Shown here in pieces: positions 2,232 to 20,204 of a stretch of DNA of 22,610 nucleotides. Each line of letters opens with the position of its first letter. The stretch's first letter is position 1. This DNA comes from a virus, in the IMG/VR virus record IMGVR_UViG_3300048686_000071, positions 1-22,610 of that record; one strand, 5' to 3'. The position numbers and the translations under genes were made by a program. The notes under the pieces were generated by a model. It had not been told where the DNA came from. It saw only the letters and a program-made list of their open reading frames with translations, and did not search any database.

Positions 2232-2911
2232 TACACCACCTTATCCCGCACCTGACCAGAACGGTACGCATCCATCCGCTCAAGACCATCACCGAGACGT
2301 TTAGCAAGAATCAGTGCTTCTTTGTATTTACCCGTGATGTTTGCCATCAGGTCAGGCTCTGACTTTAGGAATGTAGAAGCCTCTACCAGTGATCCATACA
2401 ACAAGACCGAATCAAAGTTATCACCAAGCCAAGTCGTTGTTGCGTCAACATTTCCGACCGTGATGGACGATGGGTAGTAAAAGTAATGCAGTTCCACTGT
2501 ATACCCAAGATCCGGGGTCGGGCCTAAGATGAAACTCAATTCATTTGAAATGGTTTCGCCCGTGACTGTCGGACCAAAGAGCGCATAACAATAAGGTCTG
2601 CCAGTATTCCCTGATCCTGTCGGGATAGGGAATGACTCACGGATGAAGTTCACATCCTTGTTAAGCAAGTAATGATATGACCCATCCGTGTCAATGACTG
2701 CTAAAGAGTAAGAAGCAAGAAAGTCTGATGGGCAACTCAGGTAACGATTATCTATCGTACAAACGCCCGTGACATTTTTACGCAAGCTGGGAAACTGGAT
2801 CGTGTTAAAGATCCTTTGCTCCGCCTGCTGTGTAAACGTCGTCAGGCTATCCGTGGAGAATGTGGTCTCCAGATAGTCTTGAATCTGAGTTTTTAACTCA
2901 CCCCAGTTCAC
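2231..2911 (-). CDS. Head-tail adaptor-like protein
   Basis: From the chosen start the protein has 226 residues and begins (M)NWGELKTQIQDYLETTF, with helix QQAEQRIFNTIQFPSLRKNV, then YLSCPSDFLASYSLAVIDTD, LGPTPDLGYTVELHYFYYPS and a C-terminal helix FLKSEPDLMANITGKYKEAL. 'N-W-x-x-L-x-x-x-I-x-D-Y-L', 'Q-A-E-x-R-I' and 'L-P/C-x-D-F-L' followed by strands ending 'Y-x-Y-Y' are features I associate with podovirus/siphovirus head-tail adaptors (SU10-adaptor-like). I chose GTG at 2909-2911 because it forms a GTGA overlap with the upstream stop, like the overlaps elsewhere here. A longer GTG start at 2929 is possible. The role is joining the portal to the tail. Confidence 0.75.
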   Translation of the reverse strand: MNWGELKTQIQDYLETTFSTDSLTTFTQQAEQRIFNTIQFPSLRKNVTGVCTIDNRYLSCPSDFLASYSLAVIDTDGSYHYLLNKDVNFIRESFPIPTGSGNTGRPYCYALFGPTVTGETISNELSFILGPTPDLGYTVELHYFYYPSSITVGNVDATTTWLGDNFDSVLLYGSLVEASTFLKSEPDLMANITGKYKEALILAKRLGDGLERMDAYRSGQVRDKVV

Positions 2912-3168
2912 GCCATCGGCCCCCGGCACATCACGCCTTTGGTTGCAGCCCCAGCTCCACGCATCTTAATCCCGGTCGTTTTGACTTGACTGTTAGGATT
3001 GATGGCAACACCCGCTGTTGGTTGCCAGTCTTTAACCATGTTGTAAGGCATTTCTTTACCCGGGCTAGGTGAAGCTACCACCTTAGCGCCGGTCATCGTA
3101 TGCGGCTCGGCATAAGTGGATGCTGGACCCACTTCTTTTCCGCCGATTTTCATGGAGTATTTAGCCAT
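2908..3168 (-). CDS. Small basic protein with RGxGAATKG C-terminal tag
   Basis: This is an 86-residue basic, proline/glycine-containing protein with no predicted hydrophobic core (MAKYSMKIGGKEVGPASTYA ... PYNMVKDWQPTAGVAINPNS). It ends TTGIKMRGAGAATKGVMCRG followed by PMA. This C-terminus looks like a conserved phage tag of the form TGIKMRGxGAATKGxxxRGPMA, which I recall from other environmental phages. The stretch GIKMRG aligns with GIAMRG in the C-terminal tag of the protein at 10619-11626. The start ATG has AAGGGG upstream and overlaps the upstream TAA. The function is unknown; its position between the small 52-aa protein and an adaptor suggests a virion-associated role. Confidence 0.75.
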   Translation of the reverse strand: MAKYSMKIGGKEVGPASTYAEPHTMTGAKVVASPSPGKEMPYNMVKDWQPTAGVAINPNSQVKTTGIKMRGAGAATKGVMCRGPMA

Positions 3169-4974: not shown

Positions 4975-5255
4975 GATGTATACCCGCCACCTTTTTCTTT
5001 GTACCGCTTTGCTAAAAGCTGCGCCTTCCTGGCTGACCATTTTCCTGCGCCAGTACCTTGCACCGCTGCGCTTTTGATCTGGTTAAACAGATTTTTACGC
5101 ATAGTTGGTTTAGTGTAATTACCGGATTCGTTAACTTTCGATACCTTACCGCCTTCTGCGTATTGCGTAAAGTCCGTGTCATCCCGCCGGCGTTTGACCT
5201 TGGCTTTGGGCATCTTGCTGGGATTGATTGCCCCCATTCCCCTGCTTGCCATCAT
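4971..5255 (-). CDS. Conserved small basic phage protein (WSARKAQxLAKxY)
   Basis: This 94-residue basic protein holds a KRRRDD cluster, FTQYAEGGKVSKVNESGNYT, KPTMRKNLFNQIKSAA and the C-terminal GAGKWSARKAQLLAKRYKEK, then GGGYTS. 'N-E-x-G-N-Y-T-K-P-x-M-R-K-x-L-F-x-x-I-K...W-S-A-R-K-A-Q-x-L-A-K-x-Y-K-x-K-G-G-G-Y' is a form I recognise as widespread in environmental phages, with no assigned function. AGGAG lies nine bases before the ATG at 5253-5255, which supports this start even though it puts the first 77 bases inside the end of the giant upstream gene. The YAEGGKV stretch is one of several short basic-GG motifs in this genome. Confidence 0.82.
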   Translation of the reverse strand: MMASRGMGAINPSKMPKAKVKRRRDDTDFTQYAEGGKVSKVNESGNYTKPTMRKNLFNQIKSAAVQGTGAGKWSARKAQLLAKRYKEKGGGYTS

Positions 5256-8200
5256 TTGTCACTGCTCCTATAAGTGCGGCTAACCCAAAATTGCCAGTGT
5301 CTTTTAAGGGACGCAAATAGTTTGGCGCTTTAAATAAATCAAACGGCCCAAATTCTGGCGGCGCTACTTGCGGTTGTGCATAGTCTACGTAAGTTTTCTT
5401 ACTAGTAATAGACGGTATTCCAAACAACGGAAATGGTGCAGCCGTTGTCACTGTCGTTGTTGGTGACTTTGTTGTCGTTGGTGATTTGGTTGTTGTAACG
5501 ACAGGCGTTGTTGTTACTACTGCGGTTGTCGTCACTTCCGTAGTGGTTGGCTCTAATGAAGTTGTTGGAGGCCACGGTATTGTAGGAGCTAAAGTTGTTG
5601 TTATTCCGGTCGTGGTTGGCGCTACGGTTGTTGTTACCGGAGGGGTAGTTACCGTCGTTGTAATAGGCGGTAACTCAGTGGTTGTAATGATTGCTGTAAT
5701 GCTAGGCGTTATTGTTACTGTTGGCGTAACAGTTTGTGTAATCGTTGGGGTAACAGTTTGAGTGACAGTTGCAGTAACCGTTGGTGTAATTGTTTGCGTT
5801 ACTGTCTGAGTTACTGTTTGAGTAACAGTCTGGGTCACAGTAGGCGTGACCGTTTGGGTTATTGTTTGAGTGACTGTTGGCGTTACTGTTTGAGTAACGG
5901 TTTGCGTAACAGTGGGCGTAACTGTTTGAGTAACAGTGGGCGTTACTGTTTGAGTAACAGTGGGCGTAACTGTTTGAGTAACAGTGGGCGTTACTGTTTG
6001 CGTAACCTCTTCTGTTACCGTTGCCGTAATTGTTTGTGTAATAGTAGGAGTTTGGGTCACTGTTTGTGTGACCGTTGGTGTTACTGTCTGAGTTACCGTT
6101 TGTGTGACAGTGGGTGTTTGGGTCACTGTTTGAGTAACCTTTGGCGTCTCTGTTTGTGTGATCGTAGACGTTTGAGTAACTGTCTGTGTTATGGTTGGTG
6201 TTATCGTTTGCGTTTCTGTAATAGTTGGCGTTACCGTTACCGCCTGAGTGACCGGTATTTCTAAACGCACTGTTGGCGTACTGTCTGGTTTTATAGTGGA
6301 CAGACCAAGCTTAACAACATCGCCACGCGATAATGATTTATTGTCAACATCTGTGGCTGGCATGGTAAACAATCTGCCGTCCTCAGTCCTGACTATAGCC
6401 ATGCCGTTAGTGATTGAGTCTACGGTTCCACGCACTACTTGCCTTGGTGTAATCGTATCTAACACGTTAATTTGACGATTGGGGTCTAGCCCCATCGTAT
6501 TGAATAGCGTATTTATGTCTGCATAGCTTTTACCTGAGCCTAAAAGCCCGAGCATGTCATCGGCAATCTGCGCGTCCGTTTTTGCATTAAAAGCTGTTTT
6601 GTCATTGTAAAACTTACCCTCTGGAGATTCGTTCAGAGTGGCTTGTATAGTCTGTATTTGCGTACCATTAATGATGCTTTGGATGGCGTTTTGTAGTTCG
6701 TCAAACGAAGGTTCTCTGCCTAGTTCTGAACTATATAAATCTTGTACGTCATTAGCATACTGAGCAAAACGATCTATATTTTGCTGTGGCGTGTAAATGA
6801 TATCGCTTGTTGTTGCGCCAATATTGATTTGATCGCCTAGCTTAATGTTTGCGTTGGAAGGGATGTCTACGCGTGCTACACCGCCATTTCCAAGTACAAC
6901 AAATGCTTCTCTACCATCTCCACTAAGTTCAACAATTTGACCACTATTGTCTGGCGTGAAGCCACCCTTTAGGCCAACTGCTACACCAGTATTGCCGCCA
7001 GCGGCTACAAATGTTTGTTGCATGGTTGATAAAGCACCACGCAAATAATCCATCTCTGTTGCTTGTTGGTTAAGCCCAACATCCGATAGCTTATCGGTCG
7101 CAAATTGCAAATTAAATGTCAACAACTCACCAAGTTGTTCTTTAGTTCCAATTTCGCCAATTTTTTGCATTAATGATTGACTAATTACATTTGCAAGTTG
7201 TCCCGCCGGGGCTTCTCTCCAAAGCGGTTTTAATAACGCAACAACTTGACTAGCTCCAATCCTTTCTCCTATGCCTTCAGCAATTCCCATAAGGGTTGCT
7301 CGAAATTCTGCTTCGGACGGCGAAAGTCCTGCAAATCTACCTTGGATGTATTCGTTACCATAAGTTTGCGAAACCGCTCCAGCGACAACACCCGGCACTG
7401 TTCCTGTTATTAACCACGGTATCGAAGACACGATGTTTGATAGCCCGCCGTAGAAATTTCTACCGGCTTCTGTTTTTGCATCCCCAATGGTTAAAGCATT
7501 ATCGCCAGCAGATTTAATTGTTCCTGCAAGCTCCCGAAAGTCTTTAGCGAATGTATCTAAACCGGTTTTTTCGGCTAAATACAAATTGATGCCCAAAGCC
7601 CCATTTAAAAAATTAGCTGTTGCACTCCCGCCTACTGCATAAGCTCCAGCAAGCGTATTAGCTAATGCATCGCCCTGCGGCGTTCCGCGGAATTGATTGA
7701 TGAATTGCTTGACTTCAAATGGAAAAGCCGAGTCTTTTACTTCTGAAAGATTTGCTTTGTTATATAGTTGCCCTACTTGCAAATCTCTTCTTGCTTCATC
7801 AAGCGCTGTTCCAGGCTGTAATCCTTGGGTTAGTTGATACCACTGAGCTTTTTGTTCTAATCGAGTATCTAAGGCGCTATAGGATTTGAGTAATGATTTT
7901 GCAGCTAAGTTACCAGATTGTGCTGATTGAACAAGATCTGCTATTTGTGTATCAATATTCTTGTACTGTTTATGAATATCTTGCAGCACTTTTAGTTGCG
8001 TTGTATCTGCGGGCATGCCTGCAATTTTTGCGCGATCTTCTGGTGTCATCGCGCTATAAGCTCTCAACAATCGGTCAAACTCAGTCTTGTTGACCGCCAT
8101 AAAATTGTTGTTGATAAGACCTTTCCCAGCTACGATTGGGCCGGCAAGCTGAACCTCTTCACCTAAATCAAACGGTACATTTGCATCTGAAGCTTTGATA

Positions 8201-10242
8201 TTTGTTAGATATTGTTCAACCGTCCAATTTGGATTGCCATGAAAGATTTCGTCTGGGTTGAACCCAGCGGCCAACATGTTTTCAATAACACTTGTTGTAT
8301 TTAACAGGCTATTAACTTCATCCTGGCTTAGTGTTGCAACTTGATCTTTGACTTCTTGTTTGGCTATTGTTTTAGCATTAGCTTGGTTGAAGCCCAAGTT
8401 AATTAAAGAATTCATAAGCGATACAGGATTGAATGTTCCTGTTCTCGCTGTATTAATGGCTTGCGATACGCCAATTTGCAACAATGCTTTGGATGTTGGG
8501 TCTAGTTGTTTTTCAGTTGCTAACTGATTAATACCTGTTGATACTGCTGCATTAACTGCACCGCCAAGCAAAGTTGGTAGAGGGTCTTGACCTTGTGATA
8601 TGGCATAGATTGCGTTAGTCATGGGGGCTGCGAACAACCTTGCCGTAGCAAGCTTGTCTGCTGCCGTAGCCCCACTGATCATTCCGCTATTGGCTAATTC
8701 ATTGGCTACCACATCAGTAACCAAAGTTAGAGCCTCACCCTTGATGGCCCCCAAGAAAGCTTTGGATAAATCACCACCATTGAATATGGTGTTTACTGCT
8801 GTACGTACAAGGAAGTTAGATACCGCTGGCGCTGCCGCCGTTCCAACAATACTGCTGATATAAGGCGCGATTGCCTGACCAATACCCGGCACTAAAAATG
8901 ATGCGCCCATAGCCAGGAACTGCACCAGCATAGGATTTTTGGCTATAAAGTTTGCCGTATCCCATTCAGGAACAATAATTGGACTGCCAAAAGCATCAAA
9001 CTGAACCGTGTAGTTTGAGTATCCTTCCCCAGCCCCAGTAGAACCAATTATGTTTGCACCCTTACCGCCAACCATAGCGGTATCAAGTGCTTTGCCCGTG
9101 TCTTTGTTATAAATGCCCTTTGTTTCATCCATCCCTATTTGATTTAGGTTGGTGATACCAAGAGCTGTTAGACGTTTAGCGAGATCGTCTGTATGCCAAG
9201 CATCAGAATTACCCGGCGTCTTAAAGTTCATCTTGTACAGCGATTTCCCGCTATTAATCTGCCCTTTTAGAAAACTTATCGTATCGTTACTAAGCCATTT
9301 ACCTTCCCATTTTGTATCGTTGGGATGGATGATTTGTTCTTCGTATTCTTGAACAGTTAGCTTCTGGCCCGTCTGTGGGTTTTGAAATGGTTTGCTAAAT
9401 TCTGGTTCGTAAATCCAACCCTGTTTTAACTCTAGCCCCATAGGGCTTGAAGCTTTACTTGTTGTTGGGGCCAAGGTTGTTGTTACCGTGGCCGTTGTAG
9501 TTGGTGCTTTAGTTGTTGTAACTGTGGCGGTTGTCGTAGGAGGCGGTGTCGTTGTTACTGTGGAGGTCGTAGTTGGAGCAATCGTTGTAGTTGAAGCAAC
9601 GGTCGTAGTTGGAGCGGCTGTAGTGGTTAAAACTGTAGTAGTTGGAGCCGCAGTAGTAGTTGGAGTGGCGGTAGTAGTTGGAGCGGCGGTAGTAGTTGGA
9701 GTGGCGGTAGTAGTTGGAGCGGCGGTAGTAGTTGGAGCGGCTGTAGTAGTTGGAGCCGCTGTTGTAACCGTTGCTGACGTTACAAATACCGGTGTAGTTG
9801 TAGGTGCAACCGTGGTAGTTGGAGCCGCAGTAGTAGTTGGAGCCGCAGTAGTAGTTGGAGCGGCGGTGGTAGTTGGAGCAGCAGTGGTTGTAGGAGGTGG
9901 TGTTGTTGTTAATGCAGCCGCTAATGTTTGTTCGTATGCCCAACGCTCATTTAAAGAATAAAAAGCTGCTCCGTCTGAAGCATAATAAATCGTTGGTGGC
10001 TCGTAATAATCTTCGTATTCAGGTTGTAATGTTCTTATTGGCTCCCTTGTGTATACGGGGGCGTCTGTAACAACCGCGGTGGTTTGTGGATAACGATTTG
10101 CTTCTATCCAATCAATTGAAGCTTGGTCTAATCCGGCATCTGCTAAATCAGATGCCGTGACACCATAAGCGTTAAACCACGCTAACTTTTGCGCGGTATC
10201 ATAATCTTCCCAATCTGGCGGTAATTCATCGACAAGAGCCAC
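5179..10242 (-). CDS. Giant (1,687-aa) virion protein with three Thr-rich repeat regions
   Basis: This is probably a large ejection (internal virion) or tail protein. It starts at GTG (10240-10242) after AAGGTGA; no in-frame ATG occurs before residue 268. Domains: residues 1-55, a small helical module (DTAQKLAWFNAYGVTASDLA, then IDWIEANRY); 112-263, TTTAAP-type repeats; 268-430, mixed; about 436-482, a hydrophobic Gly/Ala stretch (MLVQFLAMGASFLVPGIGQA); 490-1090, long helical, with EAEFRATLMGIAEGIGERIG near 975-995; 1100-1143 and 1264-1313, two small beta-barrel-like modules (ELSGDGREAFVVLGNGG; DSITNGMAIVRTEDGRLFTM); 1155-1218, a DUF4214-like helix set (LYSSELGREPSFDEL); 1331-1517, TVTQTVTP repeats; 1518-1605, more Thr/Pro; then an 80-residue tail. 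No catalytic site is clear. The ejection role is inferred from size, the helical core and position before the connector genes. Confidence 0.85.
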   Translation of the reverse strand: MALVDELPPDWEDYDTAQKLAWFNAYGVTASDLADAGLDQASIDWIEANRYPQTTAVVTDAPVYTREPIRTLQPEYEDYYEPPTIYYASDGAAFYSLNERWAYEQTLAAALTTTPPPTTTAAPTTTAAPTTTAAPTTTAAPTTTVAPTTTPVFVTSATVTTAAPTTTAAPTTTAAPTTTATPTTTAAPTTTATPTTTAAPTTTVLTTTAAPTTTVASTTTIAPTTTSTVTTTPPPTTTATVTTTKAPTTTATVTTTLAPTTSKASSPMGLELKQGWIYEPEFSKPFQNPQTGQKLTVQEYEEQIIHPNDTKWEGKWLSNDTISFLKGQINSGKSLYKMNFKTPGNSDAWHTDDLAKRLTALGITNLNQIGMDETKGIYNKDTGKALDTAMVGGKGANIIGSTGAGEGYSNYTVQFDAFGSPIIVPEWDTANFIAKNPMLVQFLAMGASFLVPGIGQAIAPYISSIVGTAAAPAVSNFLVRTAVNTIFNGGDLSKAFLGAIKGEALTLVTDVVANELANSGMISGATAADKLATARLFAAPMTNAIYAISQGQDPLPTLLGGAVNAAVSTGINQLATEKQLDPTSKALLQIGVSQAINTARTGTFNPVSLMNSLINLGFNQANAKTIAKQEVKDQVATLSQDEVNSLLNTTSVIENMLAAGFNPDEIFHGNPNWTVEQYLTNIKASDANVPFDLGEEVQLAGPIVAGKGLINNNFMAVNKTEFDRLLRAYSAMTPEDRAKIAGMPADTTQLKVLQDIHKQYKNIDTQIADLVQSAQSGNLAAKSLLKSYSALDTRLEQKAQWYQLTQGLQPGTALDEARRDLQVGQLYNKANLSEVKDSAFPFEVKQFINQFRGTPQGDALANTLAGAYAVGGSATANFLNGALGINLYLAEKTGLDTFAKDFRELAGTIKSAGDNALTIGDAKTEAGRNFYGGLSNIVSSIPWLITGTVPGVVAGAVSQTYGNEYIQGRFAGLSPSEAEFRATLMGIAEGIGERIGASQVVALLKPLWREAPAGQLANVISQSLMQKIGEIGTKEQLGELLTFNLQFATDKLSDVGLNQQATEMDYLRGALSTMQQTFVAAGGNTGVAVGLKGGFTPDNSGQIVELSGDGREAFVVLGNGGVARVDIPSNANIKLGDQINIGATTSDIIYTPQQNIDRFAQYANDVQDLYSSELGREPSFDELQNAIQSIINGTQIQTIQATLNESPEGKFYNDKTAFNAKTDAQIADDMLGLLGSGKSYADINTLFNTMGLDPNRQINVLDTITPRQVVRGTVDSITNGMAIVRTEDGRLFTMPATDVDNKSLSRGDVVKLGLSTIKPDSTPTVRLEIPVTQAVTVTPTITETQTITPTITQTVTQTSTITQTETPKVTQTVTQTPTVTQTVTQTVTPTVTQTVTQTPTITQTITATVTEEVTQTVTPTVTQTVTPTVTQTVTPTVTQTVTPTVTQTVTQTVTPTVTQTITQTVTPTVTQTVTQTVTQTVTQTITPTVTATVTQTVTPTITQTVTPTVTITPSITAIITTTELPPITTTVTTPPVTTTVAPTTTGITTTLAPTIPWPPTTSLEPTTTEVTTTAVVTTTPVVTTTKSPTTTKSPTTTVTTAAPFPLFGIPSITSKKTYVDYAQPQVAPPEFGPFDLFKAPNYLRPLKDTGNFGLAALIGAVTNDGKQGNGGNQSQQDAQSQGQTPAG
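5438..5691 (-). repeat. C-terminal Thr/Pro low-complexity region
   Basis: This encodes residues of about 1518-1602 of the giant protein, with TTT, TTTKSP (twice in tandem), PTTT and VTTT blocks. It is less regular than the other two repeat regions and has only short exact nucleotide repeats. It looks like a linker before the final 80-residue segment. Confidence 0.75.
5692..6250 (-). repeat. TVTQ/TVTP protein-coding repeat region
   Basis: In the giant gene this encodes about 187 residues of alternating Thr-x in units such as TVTQTVTP, TITQTVTQ and TSTITQTE. Nearly every second residue is Thr, which suits an extended or beta-strand stalk. Unit order and third bases vary, so most copies are old. 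The central part (5911-6006) is nearly identical between copies. Confidence 0.9.
5911..6006 (-). repeat. Four tandem 24-bp units
   Basis: Units at 5911-5934, 5935-5958, 5959-5982 and 5983-6006 share agtgggcgt(a/t)actgttt then g(a/c)gtaac. Copies 1 and 3 carry gta and copies 2 and 4 carry gtt at the same place, giving a 48-bp higher-order period. Each unit codes for eight residues (VTQTVTPT register). The near-identity indicates a recent expansion. Confidence 0.92.
9455..9909 (-). repeat. TTTAAP mucin-like protein-coding repeat region
   Basis: This encodes residues 112-263 of the giant protein as PTTTAA, PTTTAT, PTTTVA and similar six-residue units, interrupted once by PVFVTSATV. The best conserved part is seven 18-bp units at 9644-9769 (ggagcggcggtagtagtt and close variants). 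A second cluster of four units lies at about 9818-9890. The composition is Thr/Pro/Ala with no charge, like mucin-type linkers. Confidence 0.92.
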
Positions 10243-10250
10243 ATATCACC

Positions 10251-10619
10251 TTAGCAAGAATAGCCGCCAGCCTTCATCTTGATCATCTTGCCTTTGGTTT
10301 TACCTTTCACAGCAACACCATTGATAGACGGTGCAGCAGTCTTTACTGCGCCCATCTTGGTCATACCACCGGATTTCATACCCTTCATCTCGGCCATTTC
10401 ATGCTTGACCATAGACTTCGGTGCGCCTTTGGCTTTCATAAAGGCAACTTCTTTCTTGACCATCGCTTTGGGTTCTCCACCCATCTTGTAACCTTTCATG
10501 GCTTTTTGCTCCGATATGCCAATTGCTATGGCTTGTTTGGGGTTAGTGACTTTCTGTCCAGAGGAAGACTTTAGTTTACCTTCCTTGAACTCGCGCATTA
10601 CACGTCCTATTTTGTCCAT
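10251..10619 (-). CDS. DUF6496-like small basic protein with GKTKG C-terminal tag
   Basis: This 122-residue protein starts at the ATG at 10617-10619, which overlaps the upstream TGA. An extra TTG codon just upstream is not needed. The N-terminus MDKIGRVMREFKEGKLKSSS then GQKVTNPKQAIAIGISE matches DUF6496 (VMxEFKxGxLxSxSGxxVxxxKQAIAIxxSE). Next come two related segments, PKAMVKKEVAFMKAKGA and PKSMVKHEMAEMKGMK, then SGGMTKMGAVKTAAP and the tag INGVAVKGKTKGKMIKMKAG, ending GYSC. It is very Lys- and Met-rich. It is the last of three consecutive genes ending in the same tag. DUF6496 has no established function that I know of; DNA or capsid binding is a guess from charge. Confidence 0.85.
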   Translation of the reverse strand: MDKIGRVMREFKEGKLKSSSGQKVTNPKQAIAIGISEQKAMKGYKMGGEPKAMVKKEVAFMKAKGAPKSMVKHEMAEMKGMKSGGMTKMGAVKTAAPSINGVAVKGKTKGKMIKMKAGGYSC

Positions 10620-11626
10620 CAAATGTACCTCCCACGGGTTTTGCCACGCATGGCTATGCCATCCGCCCGCTTAGAAGCGCCTCCAACCTTACCGCCTTTA
10701 CGCATGAAATCAGAACCCATACGCATTTGATCCAACTCATCTTGCGTTGGGCGGCGAGCGCCGGGATCTTTACCTCCGCCACGGGGCGGAGATGCTAATC
10801 GTTTTGTTCCTTCCTGCTGACCTGGAAGGCGTGGCGTTGCTTTCTTAACGGTTTCAGCTTCGCCCATATATTTTTCATAGGGCAAGCGGCGCTTAGGCAT
10901 TTCTAACATGTCTGGCTGACGCGGTGGAACGCGAGGTTCTACACGGGCTTTTGATGCCGCTCCCATGCGACTAGCCAACCCGGCTCCGGCAGCTCTTAAA
11001 CCACGCAACGCTGCGCCGCCAATTAAAGCCTCTTCAGGAGACACTCTTTCTAAAGGCTTATCGGCTTTTTGTAAACGCTCGATCTCGCGCTTGCCAGCAG
11101 TTTGTCGTGCAGCGTTAATTGCTGCAATTTCTTGTTCAGCCGTTTTCCCCATCGCAGTGCGGCCTACGGGGCGCTCAGGCTCCTTCTTTGCAGATGCCAT
11201 GCCCGCCATTTCTTGTTCAACGGTCTTGCCCATCGCAGTGCGGCCCATTGCACGTTCAGGTTCTTTTTGTGCTGGTTTTTGTACCGGAGTTGAGCTTCCG
11301 CCACGTGGCGGACCCACTGGTCTGCCAGAACCAGCCGATGGTCGGCCAGAAGCTGCCGCTGGTCGGTTTTTGAGTGGCGTCCGCGAGAATCCTGCTGTTC
11401 CAGGCTCTTCAAAATCAGGGGCTATTGAAGTGCTTGTTGCCGATGGCGTTCTTACTGGAGACACCATAGTTTCTGGAGAACGCTCTGCCATCATGCGCCC
11501 TCTAATTGCATCTTCAATGTCAGACGGATCTAGTGTACTTATCCGTCCTTCGCGGTTTTCATTGCGAGCGTAATCATCATCACCATACCCGCCTTCTTGG
11601 TAACGCCTGACTTTGCGCTTTTTCAT
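10619..11626 (-). CDS. Disordered basic protein with internal 27-aa duplication and GKTRG tag
   Basis: This 335-residue protein is rich in Arg, Lys, Pro, Gly and Ala and probably largely disordered. It starts MKKRKVRRYQEGGYGDDDYA. Residues 120-146 and 147-173 are a tandem repeat (KEPERAMGRTAMGKTVEQE; KEPERPVGRTAMGKTAEQE). A possible helix lies near 195-225 (SPEEALIGGAALRGLRAAG). It ends FMRKGGKVGG, then KRADGIAMRGKTRGRYI. No homologous enzyme is recognised. Both ends overlap neighbours by ATGA. The tag is shared with the genes on either side. The amino-acid bias and repeats suggest a fast-evolving accessory virion or DNA-binding protein; this is inference. Confidence 0.82.
   Translation of the reverse strand: MKKRKVRRYQEGGYGDDDYARNENREGRISTLDPSDIEDAIRGRMMAERSPETMVSPVRTPSATSTSIAPDFEEPGTAGFSRTPLKNRPAAASGRPSAGSGRPVGPPRGGSSTPVQKPAQKEPERAMGRTAMGKTVEQEMAGMASAKKEPERPVGRTAMGKTAEQEIAAINAARQTAGKREIERLQKADKPLERVSPEEALIGGAALRGLRAAGAGLASRMGAASKARVEPRVPPRQPDMLEMPKRRLPYEKYMGEAETVKKATPRLPGQQEGTKRLASPPRGGGKDPGARRPTQDELDQMRMGSDFMRKGGKVGGASKRADGIAMRGKTRGRYI
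11127..11270 (-). repeat. Tandem duplication, 81-bp period
   Basis: Two 63-bp copies (11127-11189 and 11208-11270) are spaced 81 bases apart and share a 17-base identical core, cccatcgcagtgcggcc. They encode the two 27-residue units KEPER-x-x-GRTAMGKT-x-EQE. The third-base differences show that the duplication is not brand new and that the protein sequence has been kept. Confidence 0.88.
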
Positions 11627-11868
11627 TTCATCACCACCATCGTGCCTTTGGTTTTACCACGCTGGGCGCATCCGTCAGCAGCACGGACGTATCCACCATT
11701 CTTAAACATCTTGCCAAGGTTAGGACGCTTGTCTAGCTTACGCAGCTTCTCATCCTCTACCTCTTGTTGCATCGCACCCTTTTCTTTCTGGGTGGGTACA
11801 AGATCGTAGTTAGGGTTGTAGTTTGTGTCACCGTGACGCCCACGGCCTTTACGGGGATCATTTTCCAT
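11623..11868 (-). CDS. Small basic protein with ADGCAQRGKTKG tag
   Basis: From the ATG at 11866-11868 the product has 81 residues: MENDPRKGRGRHGDTNYNPN, then YDLVPTQKEKGAMQQEVEDE, KLRKLDKRPNLGKMFKNGG and the tag YVRAADGCAQRGKTKGTMVV, ending MK. I chose this ATG because AAGGA lies seven bases upstream. The ATG two codons earlier is almost on top of the SD. The stop overlaps the next ATG (ATGA). The tag differs from those of the next two proteins only at variable positions, and it shares a 16-base identical DNA stretch with the DUF6496-like gene. Function unknown. Confidence 0.82.
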   Translation of the reverse strand: MENDPRKGRGRHGDTNYNPNYDLVPTQKEKGAMQQEVEDEKLRKLDKRPNLGKMFKNGGYVRAADGCAQRGKTKGTMVVMK

Positions 11869-11870
11869 CG

Positions 11871-12122
11871 TCATTTCCTTTCAGCGAGGGCATCAATTTT
11901 TGCTTCAAGCCTTGCAAAGCCTGTGTCAAAGCGTTCACAAATCTTTTCCATGTCTGCACGAACTTCTGCACGAGTGATGTGATCACGGGCGATTTCCTCC
12001 CGAGTTTTGTTCAATAAAATCTGGATGCGTTTCTGTTCATCTGAAGCTAGTTTCAACATAAACATCACCAGCCCCACAAAGAATGATGTGATGAGATTCC
12101 AAACAAGAGCACCGGTTTCCAT
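11871..12122 (-). CDS. One-TM coiled-coil protein (holin or spanin-like candidate)
   Basis: This 83-residue protein has one hydrophobic segment at residues 5-25 (ALVWNLITSFFVGLVMFMLK). A charged, heptad-like helix follows (SDEQKRIQILLNKTREEIAR) and the C-terminus is FDTGFARLEAKIDALAERK. One TM near the N-terminus plus a long coiled coil could suit a small holin-like, spanin-like or virion membrane protein. It has no lipobox or signal-peptidase site that I can see. It lies among virion genes with no endolysin nearby, so a lysis role is uncertain. It starts at ATG 12120-12122, which abuts the upstream TAA. Its stop overlaps the start of the next small gene's frame. Confidence 0.8.
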   Translation of the reverse strand: METGALVWNLITSFFVGLVMFMLKLASDEQKRIQILLNKTREEIARDHITRAEVRADMEKICERFDTGFARLEAKIDALAERK

Positions 12123-12410
12123 TTAACATTTCCATCTACGTCTTGCCTGCCGTATACGGCTATTGGGATCTTTGGCTGCTTCAGGGAATTGCTTCATCTG
12201 ACCGGCTGATCGCGCACAGAACGATTTCCTGCGAGCCGCATCTTTCGGGCCAGGGTTATCACTGGTCACAGCCGTCTTAAGTTTGCTGCCAGGATTAGCC
12301 TTGCGATAAGCTGCAACGCCTTTCTCCGTCATGCCAGCACCTTGCTTGGTAGGGCGGAAATTGCCTGACTTCACTGAAGTGGCAATCCCCATACCCTTGG
12401 CCTTAGCCAT
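12123..12410 (-). CDS. DUF6321-like small basic protein
   Basis: This is a 95-residue basic protein from the ATG at 12408-12410. It contains MTEKGVAAYRKANPGSKLKT, AVTSDNPGPKDAARRKSFCA, RSAGQMKQFPEAAKDPNSRI and the end RQARRRWKC. The form 'L/M-T-x-K-G-x-A-A-Y-x-x-x-x-G-S-x-L-K-x-x-V-T...A-A-R-R-K-S-F-C-A-R...W-K-C' matches my knowledge of DUF6321, a small phage family without a known function. A longer in-frame start at 12518 would add 36 residues (MLTTQQHSTCLYREK...), but they lie inside the upstream gene and look like shadow coding. This start instead overlaps the upstream gene by only 8 bases. Confidence 0.82.
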   Translation of the reverse strand: MAKAKGMGIATSVKSGNFRPTKQGAGMTEKGVAAYRKANPGSKLKTAVTSDNPGPKDAARRKSFCARSAGQMKQFPEAAKDPNSRIRQARRRWKC

Positions 12411-12903
12411 AGAACACCGTAGCAGTGACGTTTGCAGCAAGACCTGTATAAATCCCGCTTGTGGCAACAACACCTTCTCCCGGTACAAGCACGTTGAATG
12501 CTGTTGGGTTGTAAGCATCTATCTCCATCAAGATATCTGCGTACATCGTAACGACAGGTGACCCTGTAATCGTTCCGCTAGCGGTATCAGTCACAGTGAA
12601 TACGTTTGCATCTGTCACTGTTACTGAATAAACGCCCGTGGTCGCTGTACCACCTGTACCCGCCGCAAAGATCAGCCACACACGATCCCCTGTAGTGAGA
12701 CCATGATTGGTAATTGTGCAAGTCACCGTGGTTGTTGAACGCCCGTAAGTCCCGGCTTGCGTACTGTTATTTGCAAAGACGGCATGGCGCGTTGCCGCTG
12801 ATGTATTGGCTGAAATAACCGCACCCTTTAGACGAGTGCGGTAATTCACCACAACACCAGAGCTTGTCACATGGGCCGACTTAACATCGGTTTGCATCCC
12901 CAT
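12403..12903 (-). CDS. Beta-rich virion protein, possible head decoration
   Basis: This 166-residue protein starts MGMQTDVKSAHVTSSGVVV. A beta domain follows: TCTITNHGLTTGDRVWLIFA, TTGVYSVTVTDANVFTVTDT, then MYADILMEIDAYNPTAFNVL. The 'T-x-T-x-x-x-H-G-L-x-x-G-D-x-V...G-x-Y-x-V-T-x-x-D-x-N-x-F-T-V' module is common in phage structural proteins. It is often annotated as E1-FCCH-like, with no ubiquitin link. AGGAG lies six bases before the ATG at 12901-12903. It follows the capsid and HNH genes, so a decoration or minor head/tail role is plausible but not shown. Confidence 0.8.
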   Translation of the reverse strand: MGMQTDVKSAHVTSSGVVVNYRTRLKGAVISANTSAATRHAVFANNSTQAGTYGRSTTTVTCTITNHGLTTGDRVWLIFAAGTGGTATTGVYSVTVTDANVFTVTDTASGTITGSPVVTMYADILMEIDAYNPTAFNVLVPGEGVVATSGIYTGLAANVTATVFYG

Positions 12904-13553: not shown

Positions 13554-14150
13554 TTAGGGGCGAGAGTCAATGAGCTTGTTGGACTTCAAGAGGTTTTCTT
13601 GCCTTGGTATGACACGTAAATTCCAAGGTACATGCAAACCGCATACAACTTCCGAACGCAACGGAATGATGTGGTCAACAACGTATTGTTCACCCGTCGT
13701 TTTGGTCATCGTAATAGCAATCTTGTACAACTCTCTTATCTGTCCTTTTTGCTCCCTGGTAAGCCAAATAGGCGTAGCTTCCCTATGTTTGCGCCTACGC
13801 GCTTTTGTATCAGCTCTTACCCAAGTTGTGTTTCGCTCTTTCCATGCCTTTTGGTAAACACGCTTTACTTCCAAAGGTCTGGTTGCCGCTGCTTGTATGA
13901 CTTGCTCCTTGTGCGCCTCATACCAATCATTCTTTCGGTCTTTCACGCCCTCCCTTTTGTTGTACTCCCGGAAGTAATCTGCGCGTTTTTCTGCTGCCTC
14001 TTGCCACTCCACCTTTAAGCATTCAACGCACGACCCTTTTGTTTTACGTGGTGCGATATGACCATGCTTACAAGGCTCACCAGTGAAGTAGTACTTAGCG
14101 TTTGAGGCTTGGGCCTCTTTGCGGGTTCTGGGTAAGTTTGTGGTATCCAT
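13554..14150 (-). CDS. HNH homing-type endonuclease
   Basis: This 198-residue protein has an N-terminal zinc site (PCKHGHIAPRKTKGSCVECL; C27, H29/H31, C41, C44), a basic coiled or linker region (residues 45-130), and a C-terminal HNH core. The core is VVDHIIPLRSEVVCGLHVPW then NLRVIPRQENLLKSNK, with D159-H160, H173, N177, N186 and K189. It is expected to cut DNA using a metal ion at the HNH site. AGGAG lies five bases before ATG 14148-14150. It sits between the capsid gene and other virion genes, has its own leader with a 19-bp near-palindrome, and follows a terminator. This arrangement suits a free-standing homing endonuclease gene. A packaging-related role, as for some terminase-linked HNH proteins, is less likely here. 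Confidence 0.9.
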   Translation of the reverse strand: MDTTNLPRTRKEAQASNAKYYFTGEPCKHGHIAPRKTKGSCVECLKVEWQEAAEKRADYFREYNKREGVKDRKNDWYEAHKEQVIQAAATRPLEVKRVYQKAWKERNTTWVRADTKARRRKHREATPIWLTREQKGQIRELYKIAITMTKTTGEQYVVDHIIPLRSEVVCGLHVPWNLRVIPRQENLLKSNKLIDSRP

Positions 14151-14241: not shown

Positions 14242-14257
14242 CTTGATTTACATCAAG
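14242..14257. promoter_or_regulatory. Perfect 6-bp-arm palindrome matching the FNR-box consensus
   Basis: cttgatttacatcaag has six-base arms around TTAC. The inner part, TTGAT-N4-ATCAA, is a full match to the FNR/ANR consensus. It overlaps the stop codon of the capsid gene (14253-14255) and precedes the terminator. It could be a protein site, a small RNA hairpin at the 3' end of the capsid message, or chance. Confidence 0.35.
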
Positions 14258-15161
14258 CTCCTTGCGAACCAAAAATGCCTAGAGGGTCCGAAACCCCGAA
14301 TGAATAACGCTCACGGGCTTTGTACCGCACGTTTCCGGTATCGAAGTCTCCATCCATTCCAGTCTGCATGGGTGTCCGCACGAAGTGTTTCAATCCATTG
14401 GGCACATCGGTGGTAAGGAACCAGCCGTTTGTGTCAGTCAAGAAGTGGTTGATGGTGTATCCCTCTGGGATCGAACCGTTGTTCTTGATGGCGTTGATGT
14501 CGTTGTTGTTAGTACCGACACGGAGTTCGGTTTCTAACAGACGCGTAGCCACGAACTGGAGGTTCGGAGGAACGATGAGCTTGCGTGGGCGAGCTGCGAT
14601 CAACAGACCACGTTCGTCCGTCCACCCTGCGATTTGAATGACTGCGTTTTCCAACGAAGTCTCATTCAAGTCAGCCTGGGTAGCAGGCGTGTTGCTGTTA
14701 GTGCCGCCGGATACAAGAGGATGTGCTGTAGAGAACAGAGGCTGTCCATCACCGTAAGTAACGGTAGATGCCCATCCGTTGTTCAACACTGCTGCACCCT
14801 TAACTTGTTTCGTGTATGCCATAGCGCGAGCAAGCGCTTTGGTATAACGCGAACTGAGCGAGTCGTACAGGTTGTCTTCAATCGCTTCTTCAGTGACTGA
14901 AAAGCCCATCGCAATCGTCTCATGGGTGTAGCGAGCCGTCCAAGCTTCCTGCGCGTTGTCATAAGCAATCGCAGAACCTTCGTTCTTGACCGGTGCGGCC
15001 GAGAATCCAGACAGCTTGGTTTCCTCTTCAAACGAACGCTCAGAGGTCTCGGTTTCGTAGATCTCTTTGTGTTCTTCGCCATAGCGAGCGTACTCAAGAC
15101 CGAACAGTGCGTTCAGGCCGGGGAGCAGCTCTTTCAATAGTTGTGCGCGTGAAATAGCCAT
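14253..15161 (-). CDS. Major capsid protein, Mu gpT-like
   Basis: This is a 302-residue shell protein. It starts MAISRAQLLKELLPGLNALF, with EEHKEIYETETSERSFEEET near 29-48 and FSAAPVKNEG, then the helix TEEAIEDNLYDSLSSRYTKA. GDGQPLFSTAHPLVSGGTNS (residues 137-156) is the hallmark seen in Mu-like gpT and related major head proteins. It ends GNVRYKARERYSFGVSDPLG. It is expected to have an HK97-type fold and to assemble with the scaffold protein. It has GGGGA upstream of ATG 15159-15161. It is followed by a strong terminator, as in T7 after gene 10. The length suits the family, and I see no N-terminal delta domain or protease gene here. Confidence 0.92.
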   Translation of the reverse strand: MAISRAQLLKELLPGLNALFGLEYARYGEEHKEIYETETSERSFEEETKLSGFSAAPVKNEGSAIAYDNAQEAWTARYTHETIAMGFSVTEEAIEDNLYDSLSSRYTKALARAMAYTKQVKGAAVLNNGWASTVTYGDGQPLFSTAHPLVSGGTNSNTPATQADLNETSLENAVIQIAGWTDERGLLIAARPRKLIVPPNLQFVATRLLETELRVGTNNNDINAIKNNGSIPEGYTINHFLTDTNGWFLTTDVPNGLKHFVRTPMQTGMDGDFDTGNVRYKARERYSFGVSDPLGIFGSQGA

Positions 15162-17628: not shown

Positions 17629-17809
17629 CATATTCCTTCATTCGGTTAGCAAGGTCTTCGTTAATGCGTCTTGCAATCAAAAGACCTTGAATCTGACCGC
17701 AGACGAATTTGTATTCTTCAAACGACTTCATACTTCCTTGTGCAAGCTGTTCTTCCGCATAACGGATTTGCTTGTTTATCTCCAGGTTGACAGCTTCATA
17801 AAACTCCAT
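17621..17809 (-). CDS. 62-aa helical phage protein
   Basis: This short helical protein reads MEFYEAVNLEINKQIRYAEE, QLAQGSMKSFEEYKFVCGQI, QGLLIARRINEDLANRMKEY and DD. The form 'S-F-E-E-Y-K-x-V-C-G-Q-I-x-G-L-x-x-A-R' is one I recognise as conserved between portal and downstream head genes in environmental phages. Function unknown. The ATG at 17807-17809 overlaps the portal stop (ATGA), and its stop overlaps the co-chaperonin start. A GTG just upstream is an alternative start that I do not favour. Its tight linkage hints at a portal- or assembly-associated role. Confidence 0.8.
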   Translation of the reverse strand: MEFYEAVNLEINKQIRYAEEQLAQGSMKSFEEYKFVCGQIQGLLIARRINEDLANRMKEYDD

Positions 17810-20196
17810 CACTGACCCCGCTGGATTTCCGCAGCCTTGTCAATCATCTTGACTTGGTTGTTTTGATTATTGATGCGCTCGTTAGAAGCCAAGCGCTCTT
17901 GCTCCAACATCACTTTCTGAGCCTGTGCTTGTTGTTTCAATTGAATATCAGCCGCGTCTTTTGCTGCTTCACGCTGTTCACGCGCCGCTTTAATTTCCAA
18001 TTCTTTTTGCTGCATTTGAACAACAGGATCTTGTTGAGCCTGCATGTTTTGGGCCATTTGCGCTTGTTGCGTGTTTTGTTGCAACAACTGTTGGGCCGCT
18101 TGAGCCGCCAATCGGGAGACTTGAACTTCAAAGTCTTCTGGCATCCGCGTATTTGGCGGTGGTAACGGTACACCTAACTGCTCTTCCATCTTGCGGCGAT
18201 ACAGGAATGCCAAATGCTCGTTCACATGCGCCATAGCAGCAGCCATCATCTGGCCGGACATTGGGTTTTGTTGCATCTGTTGTCGTAGCAACGGATCATT
18301 GAGTGCAGCCATATGCACAGCAATATGTGCATCGTGATCCTGATAAATAAACGCTTTCACAGGCTTCATGTTCAAAATGTCCATGTTTTCTGTGATTGGG
18401 TCACGGGGCTCTTGCTGTTTGGTCACTGGTATGAGTTTGTCTATTTCTTTAATACCCAATACACCTAGCATCCTTTTATGCAACTCCGGCATGTCGTAGA
18501 TCTGCGGGGCTTGTGCTGCTAGCTGCAACACCGCTTGATATTGCGTAACTCGCTGGGCAAGTGTCGTTGCATTTGGATCAGAGACAGGGATGACGTCTAC
18601 ATTGTCATAATCTGCCTGTTTTACCATTCTGCCTATCGGTGAATCAACATCGTAGTTATATTCAGACGGCAAATAATCTCTGATAATAGCGGCTAATAAT
18701 TTAAACTCCTGGCGCATTGAATAATGCAAACGCGCCTGTACCGCAGACATTACTTTTAATGTGCGCTCTAATACTGCTAATGTTGTTCCTACTGGGGTAT
18801 TTGCAGATAAATCACTGATTTGCATATCTGCGGTTGCTGCAAACCGGCGTCCTTCTTCAACAATTGTTTTAAGCAATTCAAAAAGAACCTGACTTGGTTC
18901 TTTATAGGGCAGCGGAAGGATGTTGTCCCTAATAGAACCAGATGGGACATCTACGTCTCTAAACTCCCCTGGTGATATTGGCGTGTCGTCACCTTTAACA
19001 CGCAAGCCGCGTGATTTTAATCCGCCGGGTAAATTAGATAATGTGCCTGCATCAACTAACTGCCTAATTAATGATGTGCCGGATTTTGAAAATCCACCAA
19101 CTAAATGTATTAATCCAAACCCATAAAAACCAAATCCAGGTATATATATGTAATGGGTATAATGCATCCGTTTTAATTTAAGCGGATCGTCGTCATACCA
19201 GTTTCTACGTATTGCTAATATCTTGCTTGTGCCTTTATCAATGGTCACAATATAAGGCAGCGCGATACCAGTTGGGCCTTGTTTGTCTGAGTCCTCAAAT
19301 CCTGGCAGATCTAAGTCAACACACATTTCAAGGATGCGGTAACGATCATCCATTGTGGCTGACATGCCTTGTTCTTCAGCCTTGCGCTTTTCAATATCGT
19401 CAAGAACAGTTGTTGGCTCACCAAGATCGATGTCGCGCCACAGTCCTGCGTGCTGAAGTTTTTTAACTTCGTTCTTTGTTTTACGCATGATTTGCGTAAT
19501 GCGTGGCGAAGACCGCAACTCTGTTGCGCCATAGGGCACGACAAGATCTTCCGCAGGCACAAACATAGATACCTGTCTGCCTAGAGACGGATCGTAGTAG
19601 ACCTTTTTAAATGCTGAGCCGGCTAAGGCTAACGACCAAAGCATCTTTTCATGTTCGGGTCGGTACTCTGGCATTTGTTCTGTTAGACGCCAGTTCATGT
19701 CTTCTTTGACTCGCTCGGCTGCGTCTTCTTTTTCTTTGCTTAATACGCCAACGATTTGCGTTTTTACAGGACCGGACGCAGGGAATGTTTCCATAATGGA
19801 TTCGGCCTGGAAACGGACTGCTGCTTCGGATAGCAACGGATAGAACACACCGCAGGCTCCCGGCCAGGGTTCTGTACGATCCTCATACTTTAGTCCTAGT
19901 AACTTCAAACCATCAACATACGTATCCACCCACTCTTTCCTGGATGACTGATCGGTTTCGTAGTCATCAAGTAAGTCTGATGCAATGGTACTTAGCTCAC
20001 GCTCGTCAATATATTCCGCTAGATTGGCGTCATGGTCTGTTGGGTATTCAGGTTCGTGTTCAAGCGTAATTTCCACGCCGTCTGTTGCAATCGTGACAGA
20101 CTCAGGGTCTTCAATTTCAATCTCCACTTCGGTTGGTTCATCCATAGCGGCGTCCAAACCAAGGGGTGCGGGGTAGAGTGCGGGTGCAATTGCCAT
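17809..20196 (-). CDS. Portal protein
   Basis: This 795-residue protein has an acidic N-terminus (DEPTEVEIEIEDPESVTIAT), then RKEWVDTYVDGLKLLGLKYE, TEPWPGACGVFYPLLSEAAV and RFQAESIMETFP. The core includes RPEHEKMLWSLALAGSAFKK and VYYDP, the stem-type region GFGFYGFGLIHLVGGFSKSG, then NLPGGLKSRGLRVKGDDTPI. The last roughly 110 residues are Gln/Ala-rich helix (barrel or crown region). Such length, the 'G-A-C-x-x-x-Y-P-L-L-x-E-A-x-x-x-F-Q-A-E' segment and the Gln-rich end match large P22-like or podovirus portals. It forms the DNA gate at one vertex and binds terminase and the adaptors. Two ATGs abut; the second (20196) has AGGAG at five bases. Confidence 0.9.
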   Translation of the reverse strand: MAIAPALYPAPLGLDAAMDEPTEVEIEIEDPESVTIATDGVEITLEHEPEYPTDHDANLAEYIDERELSTIASDLLDDYETDQSSRKEWVDTYVDGLKLLGLKYEDRTEPWPGACGVFYPLLSEAAVRFQAESIMETFPASGPVKTQIVGVLSKEKEDAAERVKEDMNWRLTEQMPEYRPEHEKMLWSLALAGSAFKKVYYDPSLGRQVSMFVPAEDLVVPYGATELRSSPRITQIMRKTKNEVKKLQHAGLWRDIDLGEPTTVLDDIEKRKAEEQGMSATMDDRYRILEMCVDLDLPGFEDSDKQGPTGIALPYIVTIDKGTSKILAIRRNWYDDDPLKLKRMHYTHYIYIPGFGFYGFGLIHLVGGFSKSGTSLIRQLVDAGTLSNLPGGLKSRGLRVKGDDTPISPGEFRDVDVPSGSIRDNILPLPYKEPSQVLFELLKTIVEEGRRFAATADMQISDLSANTPVGTTLAVLERTLKVMSAVQARLHYSMRQEFKLLAAIIRDYLPSEYNYDVDSPIGRMVKQADYDNVDVIPVSDPNATTLAQRVTQYQAVLQLAAQAPQIYDMPELHKRMLGVLGIKEIDKLIPVTKQQEPRDPITENMDILNMKPVKAFIYQDHDAHIAVHMAALNDPLLRQQMQQNPMSGQMMAAAMAHVNEHLAFLYRRKMEEQLGVPLPPPNTRMPEDFEVQVSRLAAQAAQQLLQQNTQQAQMAQNMQAQQDPVVQMQQKELEIKAAREQREAAKDAADIQLKQQAQAQKVMLEQERLASNERINNQNNQVKMIDKAAEIQRGQ

Positions 20197-20204
20197 CATG
20201 GCTC

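Follow-up and report, generated by a model that had tools for sequence, protein, structure and literature searches.

In phage T4, the capsid-targeting sequences of IPI, IPII, and IPIII constitute a short terminal peptide that is common to head proteins with divergent bodies and that loads varied proteins (PMC9026906). Encapsulin cargo-loading peptides are conserved C-terminal peptides of about 10 residues on unrelated cargo, whose genes are adjacent to a shell gene related to those of phage capsids (PMC7355545). Here, a conserved terminal peptide of phage proteins, designated tag A, was compared with both systems, with the T4 sequences being set beside it by anatomy rather than by sequence. 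The T4 peptide and tag A are both short terminal peptides on divergent bodies, but the former is N-terminal, is about 10 residues long, and is removed by the gp21 protease, whereas the latter is mostly C-terminal and about 16 residues long. Divergent bodies occur within one phage, as in T4, with 1 to 6 tags per contig and 122 clusters of bodies among the matches listed. An N-terminal propeptide was not found; the median tag position is within the last 30 residues in 121 of the 122 clusters among the matches listed, and this terminal position rules out a T4-type capsid-targeting sequence. As in encapsulins, a C-terminal peptide is carried by unrelated proteins beside an HK97-fold shell gene, judging by tag position and capsid linkage, with the capsid fold being assigned by family annotation. 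However, encapsulins are bacterial compartments with enzyme cargo, whereas tag A is found on phage proteins, and its binding to a shell is putative.

Three overlapping tagged genes in a phage structural module

The window, which is the whole stretch of DNA analyzed, is an IMG/VR record of 22,610 bases with a G+C content of 48%. Its minus strand carries a structural module comprising genes for the terminase large subunit, portal, GroES-like, major capsid, and DUF6321 proteins, three tagged genes (encoding p3, p2, and p1), a gene for a 1,687-residue repeat protein, and tail or head-tail genes. The features are as follows.

17809..20199, minus strand: portal protein (phrog_1216), used as the lineage anchor
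14253..15161, minus strand: major capsid protein (PF25209, 54 bits; phrog_371), of the tag-carrying capsid clade
12123..12518, minus strand: DUF6321 protein, without the tag in the window and tagged in some relatives (body cluster 5)
11623..11874, minus strand: p3, tagged protein of 83 aa with the body MENDPRKGRGRHGDTNYNPNYD... (ORF list; AlphaFold2 mean pLDDT of 54)
11626..11676, minus strand: tag of p3, DGCAQRGKTKG followed by TMVVMK (profile E value of 2.1e-15)
10619..11626, minus strand: p2, tagged protein of 335 aa with a low-complexity body and the N terminus MKKRKVRRYQEGG (ORF list; body cluster 2, 52 members)
10622..10663, minus strand: tag of p2, DGIAMRGKTRG followed by RYI, strictly C-terminal (profile E value of 2.9e-13)
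10251..10619, minus strand: p1, DUF6496 protein with a tagged C-terminal half (PF20106, 36.4 bits)
10290..10322, minus strand: tag core of p1, NGVAVKGKTKG, followed by KMIKMKAGGYSC (profile E value of 5.4e-11)
2908..3168, minus strand: protein of 86 aa ending in a second tag, tag B, RGAGAATKGVMCRGPMA (ORF and tag B pattern)

The 1,687-residue ORF (positions 5179-10242, minus strand) contains TTTAP and TVTQTVTPTV repeats, and a tblastn search with the low-complexity filter on found no relative of it in the 120 tagged loci listed. The interval from the capsid gene to the tagged genes encodes an endonuclease VII-like protein (13554-14150) and a protein with a baseplate-wedge profile match (12403-12903).

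Neighboring genes among p3, p2, and p1 overlap by 4 nt (ATGA) and 1 nt (TGATG), with the start of p1 taken as ATG (the ORF list has TTG at 10622). The preliminary description of this DNA had recognized three overlapping genes with a common end motif, and both the ORFs and their C-terminal ends (ADGCAQRGKTKGTMVVMK, ADGIAMRGKTRGRYI, and INGVAVKGKTKGKMIKMKAGGYSC for p3, p2, and p1, respectively) were confirmed. Its statement that these ends align stands insofar as all three match the tag profile, but only the p2 tag is strictly terminal, with 3 residues after GKTRG; p3 has 6 residues after the core, and p1 has 12, and both of these counts recur among relatives. The resemblance of p1 to DUF6496 that it had noted is borne out by the PF20106 score, which exceeds the Pfam gathering cutoff of 24, but the match covers only residues 3 to 46 of p1, and the tag lies outside the matched part. 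The C-terminal half of p1 clusters with proteins bearing another N-terminal domain, KQHNFM. No match to p2 or p3 was found in Pfam or PHROGs, and p3 orthologs with 80 to 100% identity are present in about 27 IMG/VR contigs.

Tag A and the bodies that carry it

The 16-residue consensus of tag A, [RK]-[AGS]-D-G-[CIV]-A-x-[KR]-G-K-T-[KR]-G-[RKT]-[MFI]-[VIC], matches all three window ORFs. The DNA pattern for G-x-A-x-[KR]-G-K-T-K-G (the GKTKG pattern) occurs at at least 120 loci in IMG/VR, and 150 of the 154 matches listed are in frame in closed-ended ORFs of at least 40 residues, about half of which end three residues later. The GKTRG variant also occurs at at least 120 IMG/VR loci, with 137 of the 158 matches listed ending exactly three residues later. 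A control pattern of the reversed peptide matched 13 chance stretches in the whole of IMG/VR, none of which ends 3 residues later. Among the matches listed, exactly 3 residues separate GKT[KR]G from the stop in 238 of 432 distinct tagged ORFs, and a sizeable minority have 6 to 30 extra residues. The invariance of G, A, K, and T arises partly by construction because the patterns select those positions; the search did not, however, select for location at the C terminus, for the D that precedes them, or for a hydrophobic residue at the very end. Four small ORFs of 62 to 69 residues (L120 9456-9650, L027 1084-1272, L031 2056-2265, and L086 1152-1340) carry the tag near the N terminus (MAFTKSADGIAAKGKTKGKNLGDSGP...) and resemble MAGRGMGCATRGGGAVESGPKNK of phage DSL-LC04.

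The preliminary description had called for a profile scan, and the profile and pattern searches showed C-terminal enrichment, linkage to virion genes, and several tags per genome, with 1 to 6 mostly clustered tags per record in whole-record searches of 29 tagged records. Its own grounds for abandoning the tag did not materialize: the motif is not confined to one full-length homologous family or equally frequent at internal positions, given the body clusters and tag positions among the matches listed, and it was not found to be a feature of nonphage proteins. A scan of 257 Gb of prokaryote genomes yielded 8 stretches matching the pattern, 5 of which have the tag (L217, L218, L221, L222, and L224); all five belong to metagenome-assembled or uncultured bins, and the contig is <9 kb long in four cases, suggesting that these contigs are viral. 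Single-sequence and profile searches found no solved structure bearing the tag, and a literature search on the motif or on a shared C-terminal phage tag returned only unrelated matches. A tblastn search of the short tags against INPHARED is a weak test, with typical tag B queries being unmatched even at an E value of 10, and the Alishewanella matches (E values of 0.8 and 6) were taken as chance. The segment G-x-A-x-[KR]-GKT fits the consensus of a Walker A P-loop ([AG]x4GK[ST] plus a helix), yet usually only about 5 residues follow the T, GHT and GRT variants occur, and the models have no fold at the tag, and a P-loop was therefore rejected.

Bodies were clustered by BLAST (E value of 1e-5) after removal of the tag and the 12 preceding residues, and the 423 bodies among the matches listed formed the 122 clusters, a number to be read with the caveat that low complexity can split or join clusters. 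At least half of the members end three residues past the tag in 104 of the 122 clusters among the matches listed. Cluster 1 (139 members) merges at least two N-terminal domains, KQHNFM and DUF6496, on a related C-terminal half, and p1 is therefore a case of one tail on different heads. Pfam recognizes only DUF6321 among 60 cluster representatives. The bodies have a median length of 90 residues and a median pI of 9.5, with 14 of 120 being acidic; by the charge-hydropathy line, 91 of the 120 are classed as disordered. The tags alone show no confident fold in the AlphaFold2 model of p3 or in the KQHNFM family model, in which confidence is limited to an N-terminal domain of ~38 residues and does not extend to the tag. 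A fold search with the KQHNFM model gave only insignificant matches, many of them to helix-turn-helix proteins (E values of ≥4). The KQHNFM domain is found in many jumbo phages, including phiKZ-type phages, and is 70% identical over 43 residues to phiKZ PHIKZ165.1 (L468 4001-4177, a 58-residue ORF), which lies near a structural protein gene. It also matches an Eowyn ORF labeled structural protein and two PHROG profiles named virion structural protein, and these similarities hint at a virion location of the tagged proteins.

Linkage to the major capsid gene

All 120 GKTKG-pattern loci listed share genes with the window. Tagged genes are on the capsid strand, about 1 to 8 kb downstream of the major capsid gene (1.1 to 6.5 kb for all 79 tags in the loci with a capsid gene), and a window-type capsid is present in all 48 of the tagged GKTKG loci whose sequence extends at least 3.5 kb upstream from the tag. 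The capsids of tagged loci are 72 to 91% identical to that of the window. When the search was started from the capsid, 33 of 36 contigs with room for the tagged genes were tagged in the window capsid clade, versus 1 of 30 in the DSL-LC04 sister clade. In the capsid tree, one clade (support of 99) holds 54 tagged rows of 57, including Planktothrix phage Pag-Yong1, and the tag label requires 5 changes, versus 16 when shuffled. The capsid-based counts are the fairer test because the tree rows were partly picked by tag.

Sequenced phages with a capsid and portal close to those of the window are Pag-Yong1 (and two records of the same length), the HTVC023P-type pelagiphages, DSL-LC04, and the Roseobacter phages CRP-901/902. 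Pag-Yong1 is the one cultured relative with the tag. Records OL906435.1, OQ594354.1, and PP438419.1 are each 65,014 bases long, with equal match scores and differing host labels, and they may be one phage. The HTVC023P-type pelagiphages and DSL-LC04 have terminase, portal, GroES-like, capsid, and adaptor-region genes related to those of the window; unlike the window, these isolates lack tag A. Profile searches found no tag in the whole records of HTVC023P, HTVC027P, DSL-LC04, CRP-902, QDWS535, and 023Pt, and Caulobacter phage RW gave a weak match (E value of 0.009).

The link between tag and capsid may be plain vertical descent of one lineage. Locus L432 is tagged, although its capsid is close to that of the untagged L423, and no window-type capsid was found in the fetched DNA of three tagged GKTRG loci (L314, L485, and L524); the capsid itself therefore need not be the receptor. 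Three other receptor candidates, g4971, g4729, and g2908, have relatives that are frequent in tagged loci and were not found by tblastn in untagged isolates, but they were not put forward because relatives were also not found in the tagged Pag-Yong1.

A putative docking peptide and its alternatives

Tag A is tentatively proposed to be an undescribed C-terminal docking peptide for the virion near the head, a reading to which we give slightly less than an even chance. In this view, small accessory proteins of the late (structural) gene block, most of them disordered, would carry a short linear peptide at their free C terminus, and this peptide would be read by a component of the assembling particle, most likely in the head (capsid shell or scaffold), so that the tagged bodies would be carried into or onto the virion. 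The bodies would be interchangeable over evolution while the tag stays. A docking peptide fits because the tag keeps a fixed distance to the free end, lies in an unfolded context, stays constant while the bodies turn over, and is tightly linked to the capsid gene. That the proteins are expressed late, have such a partner, and enter the virion is inferred, as is what their bodies do. A search for a virion proteome or structure of a tagged phage found none. Packaging into the head, which the preliminary description had given as one possibility, is plausible.

Tag B has the form RGxGAATKG...ARGPMA and is present in tag A phages and in others. The pattern RGxGAA[TI]KG occurs at at least 120 loci, and 74 of the 77 pattern matches listed from newly fetched contigs end 6 to 8 residues before the stop, on varied bodies. 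In HTVC023P, gp32 and gp51 (L304 15873-16610 and 26698-27081), which are unlike proteins, share a C-terminal RGxGAAxRGxxFxGVx. Intermediate forms are present on two adjacent proteins of L473 (VRGCGIASRGKTRGRMV and VKGCGIASRGKTRGKIV) and at the ends of neighboring proteins of L524 (VRGSGCAKRGKTRGKMV and VRGGGAATKGLKISKKMG). What relates tags A and B is the similarity of their short cores. It is conceivable, if doubtful, that they are two dialects of one sorting code with the C-terminal core [RK]-[AG]-x-G-x-A-x-[KR]-G, by which aquatic tailed phages would recruit varying sets of small disordered proteins to the virion.

Docking to the portal, adaptor, or tail instead of the head, for instance, as tail-tip or ejection cargo, would agree with the location of the tagged genes, which have the capsid and cement-like genes on one side and the adaptor gene on the other, but this location is equally compatible with the head. 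The head is favored mainly because the T4 capsid-targeting sequences and the encapsulin cargo-loading peptides show the same anatomy, and docking to the tail side is judged unlikely. A similarly low probability is given to a basic tail that binds nucleic acid, on late proteins that condense DNA or bind RNA, which would need no protein partner. The tags are net positive, and the bodies are typically basic; however, an acidic D, three G residues, and an A are conserved within the basic stretch, the acidic bodies do not fit, and an electrostatic tail would not be expected to keep a constant spacing to the stop codon.

Some C-terminal degrons resemble the end of the tag in having a basic stretch and a hydrophobic last residue (as in RMV, RFV, and RII). 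The tag could in this way be read by a host factor, such as a protease, chaperone, or membrane protein, and limit or time these proteins. A signal read by the host is not expected to be largely confined to one capsid clade or to capsid-adjacent genes, and neither the minority of tags followed by 6 to 30 residues nor the small family tagged near the N terminus agrees with it; this explanation is quite improbable.

The codons bear on whether the tag has a protein function of its own. In 14 aligned p3 orthologs, 18 of 23 codons in the tag region vary only synonymously and 2 change the residue; in the body of the same alignment, 23 of 56 vary only synonymously and 8 change the residue. The tags are constrained at the protein level. 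The 16-base match between the p1 and p3 tags reported in the preliminary description (10289-10304 and 11643-11658) is exact, but the copying or gene conversion that it was taken to indicate is not supported: codon identity between tags is 0.457 within contigs, barely above the 0.430 between contigs (0.372 is expected from codon usage), and the orthologs lack the 16-bp identity, with the p1 and p3 tags using differing codons in the orthologous contigs read. These identities indicate a tag-specific codon preference with little sign of homogenization within genomes, and the best interpretation of the 16-base identity is therefore coincidence added to this codon preference. Average codon usage alone, however, would give identical GKTKG codons in a proportion of only about 0.005. 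In the tags of L002 to L201 and the window, GGC or GGT nearly always encodes the first glycine of GKTKG, and GGA or GGG often encodes the last; the threonine is mostly ACC or ACT, though ACA is the commonest in the window.

In the window (10619-10640) and the tagged loci listed, the codons for the last tag residues resemble an embedded Shine-Dalgarno sequence of the overlapping next gene. CGG and AGG account for 65% of the codons of the R that follows the core, versus 24% in bodies (P = 1e-9), and in 57 of 73 cases the stop of the tagged gene is overlapped by the start codon of the next one; because of this bias and overlap, the end of the tag seems to double as a ribosome-binding site for the next gene. 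That the whole tag is a by-product of duplication, recombination, or such an embedded site is very improbable, since the Shine-Dalgarno effect touches only the last few codons, codons elsewhere vary synonymously while the residues stay, and the tags of orthologous genes keep gene-specific residues and are not homogenized.

The same tail closes more than 100 different small proteins encoded next to the capsid gene in one large, mostly uncultured group of aquatic phages. This phage group is common, and the motif is strongly conserved in it whatever its mechanism. The role of the tag can be tested in a deposited cultured phage. If the docking reading is true, the tag would allow cargo to be predicted from metagenomic sequences and would be a candidate loading peptide for engineered capsids; as a virion docking signal, it would also mark more than 100 families of otherwise unnameable small phage proteins as components of the particle.
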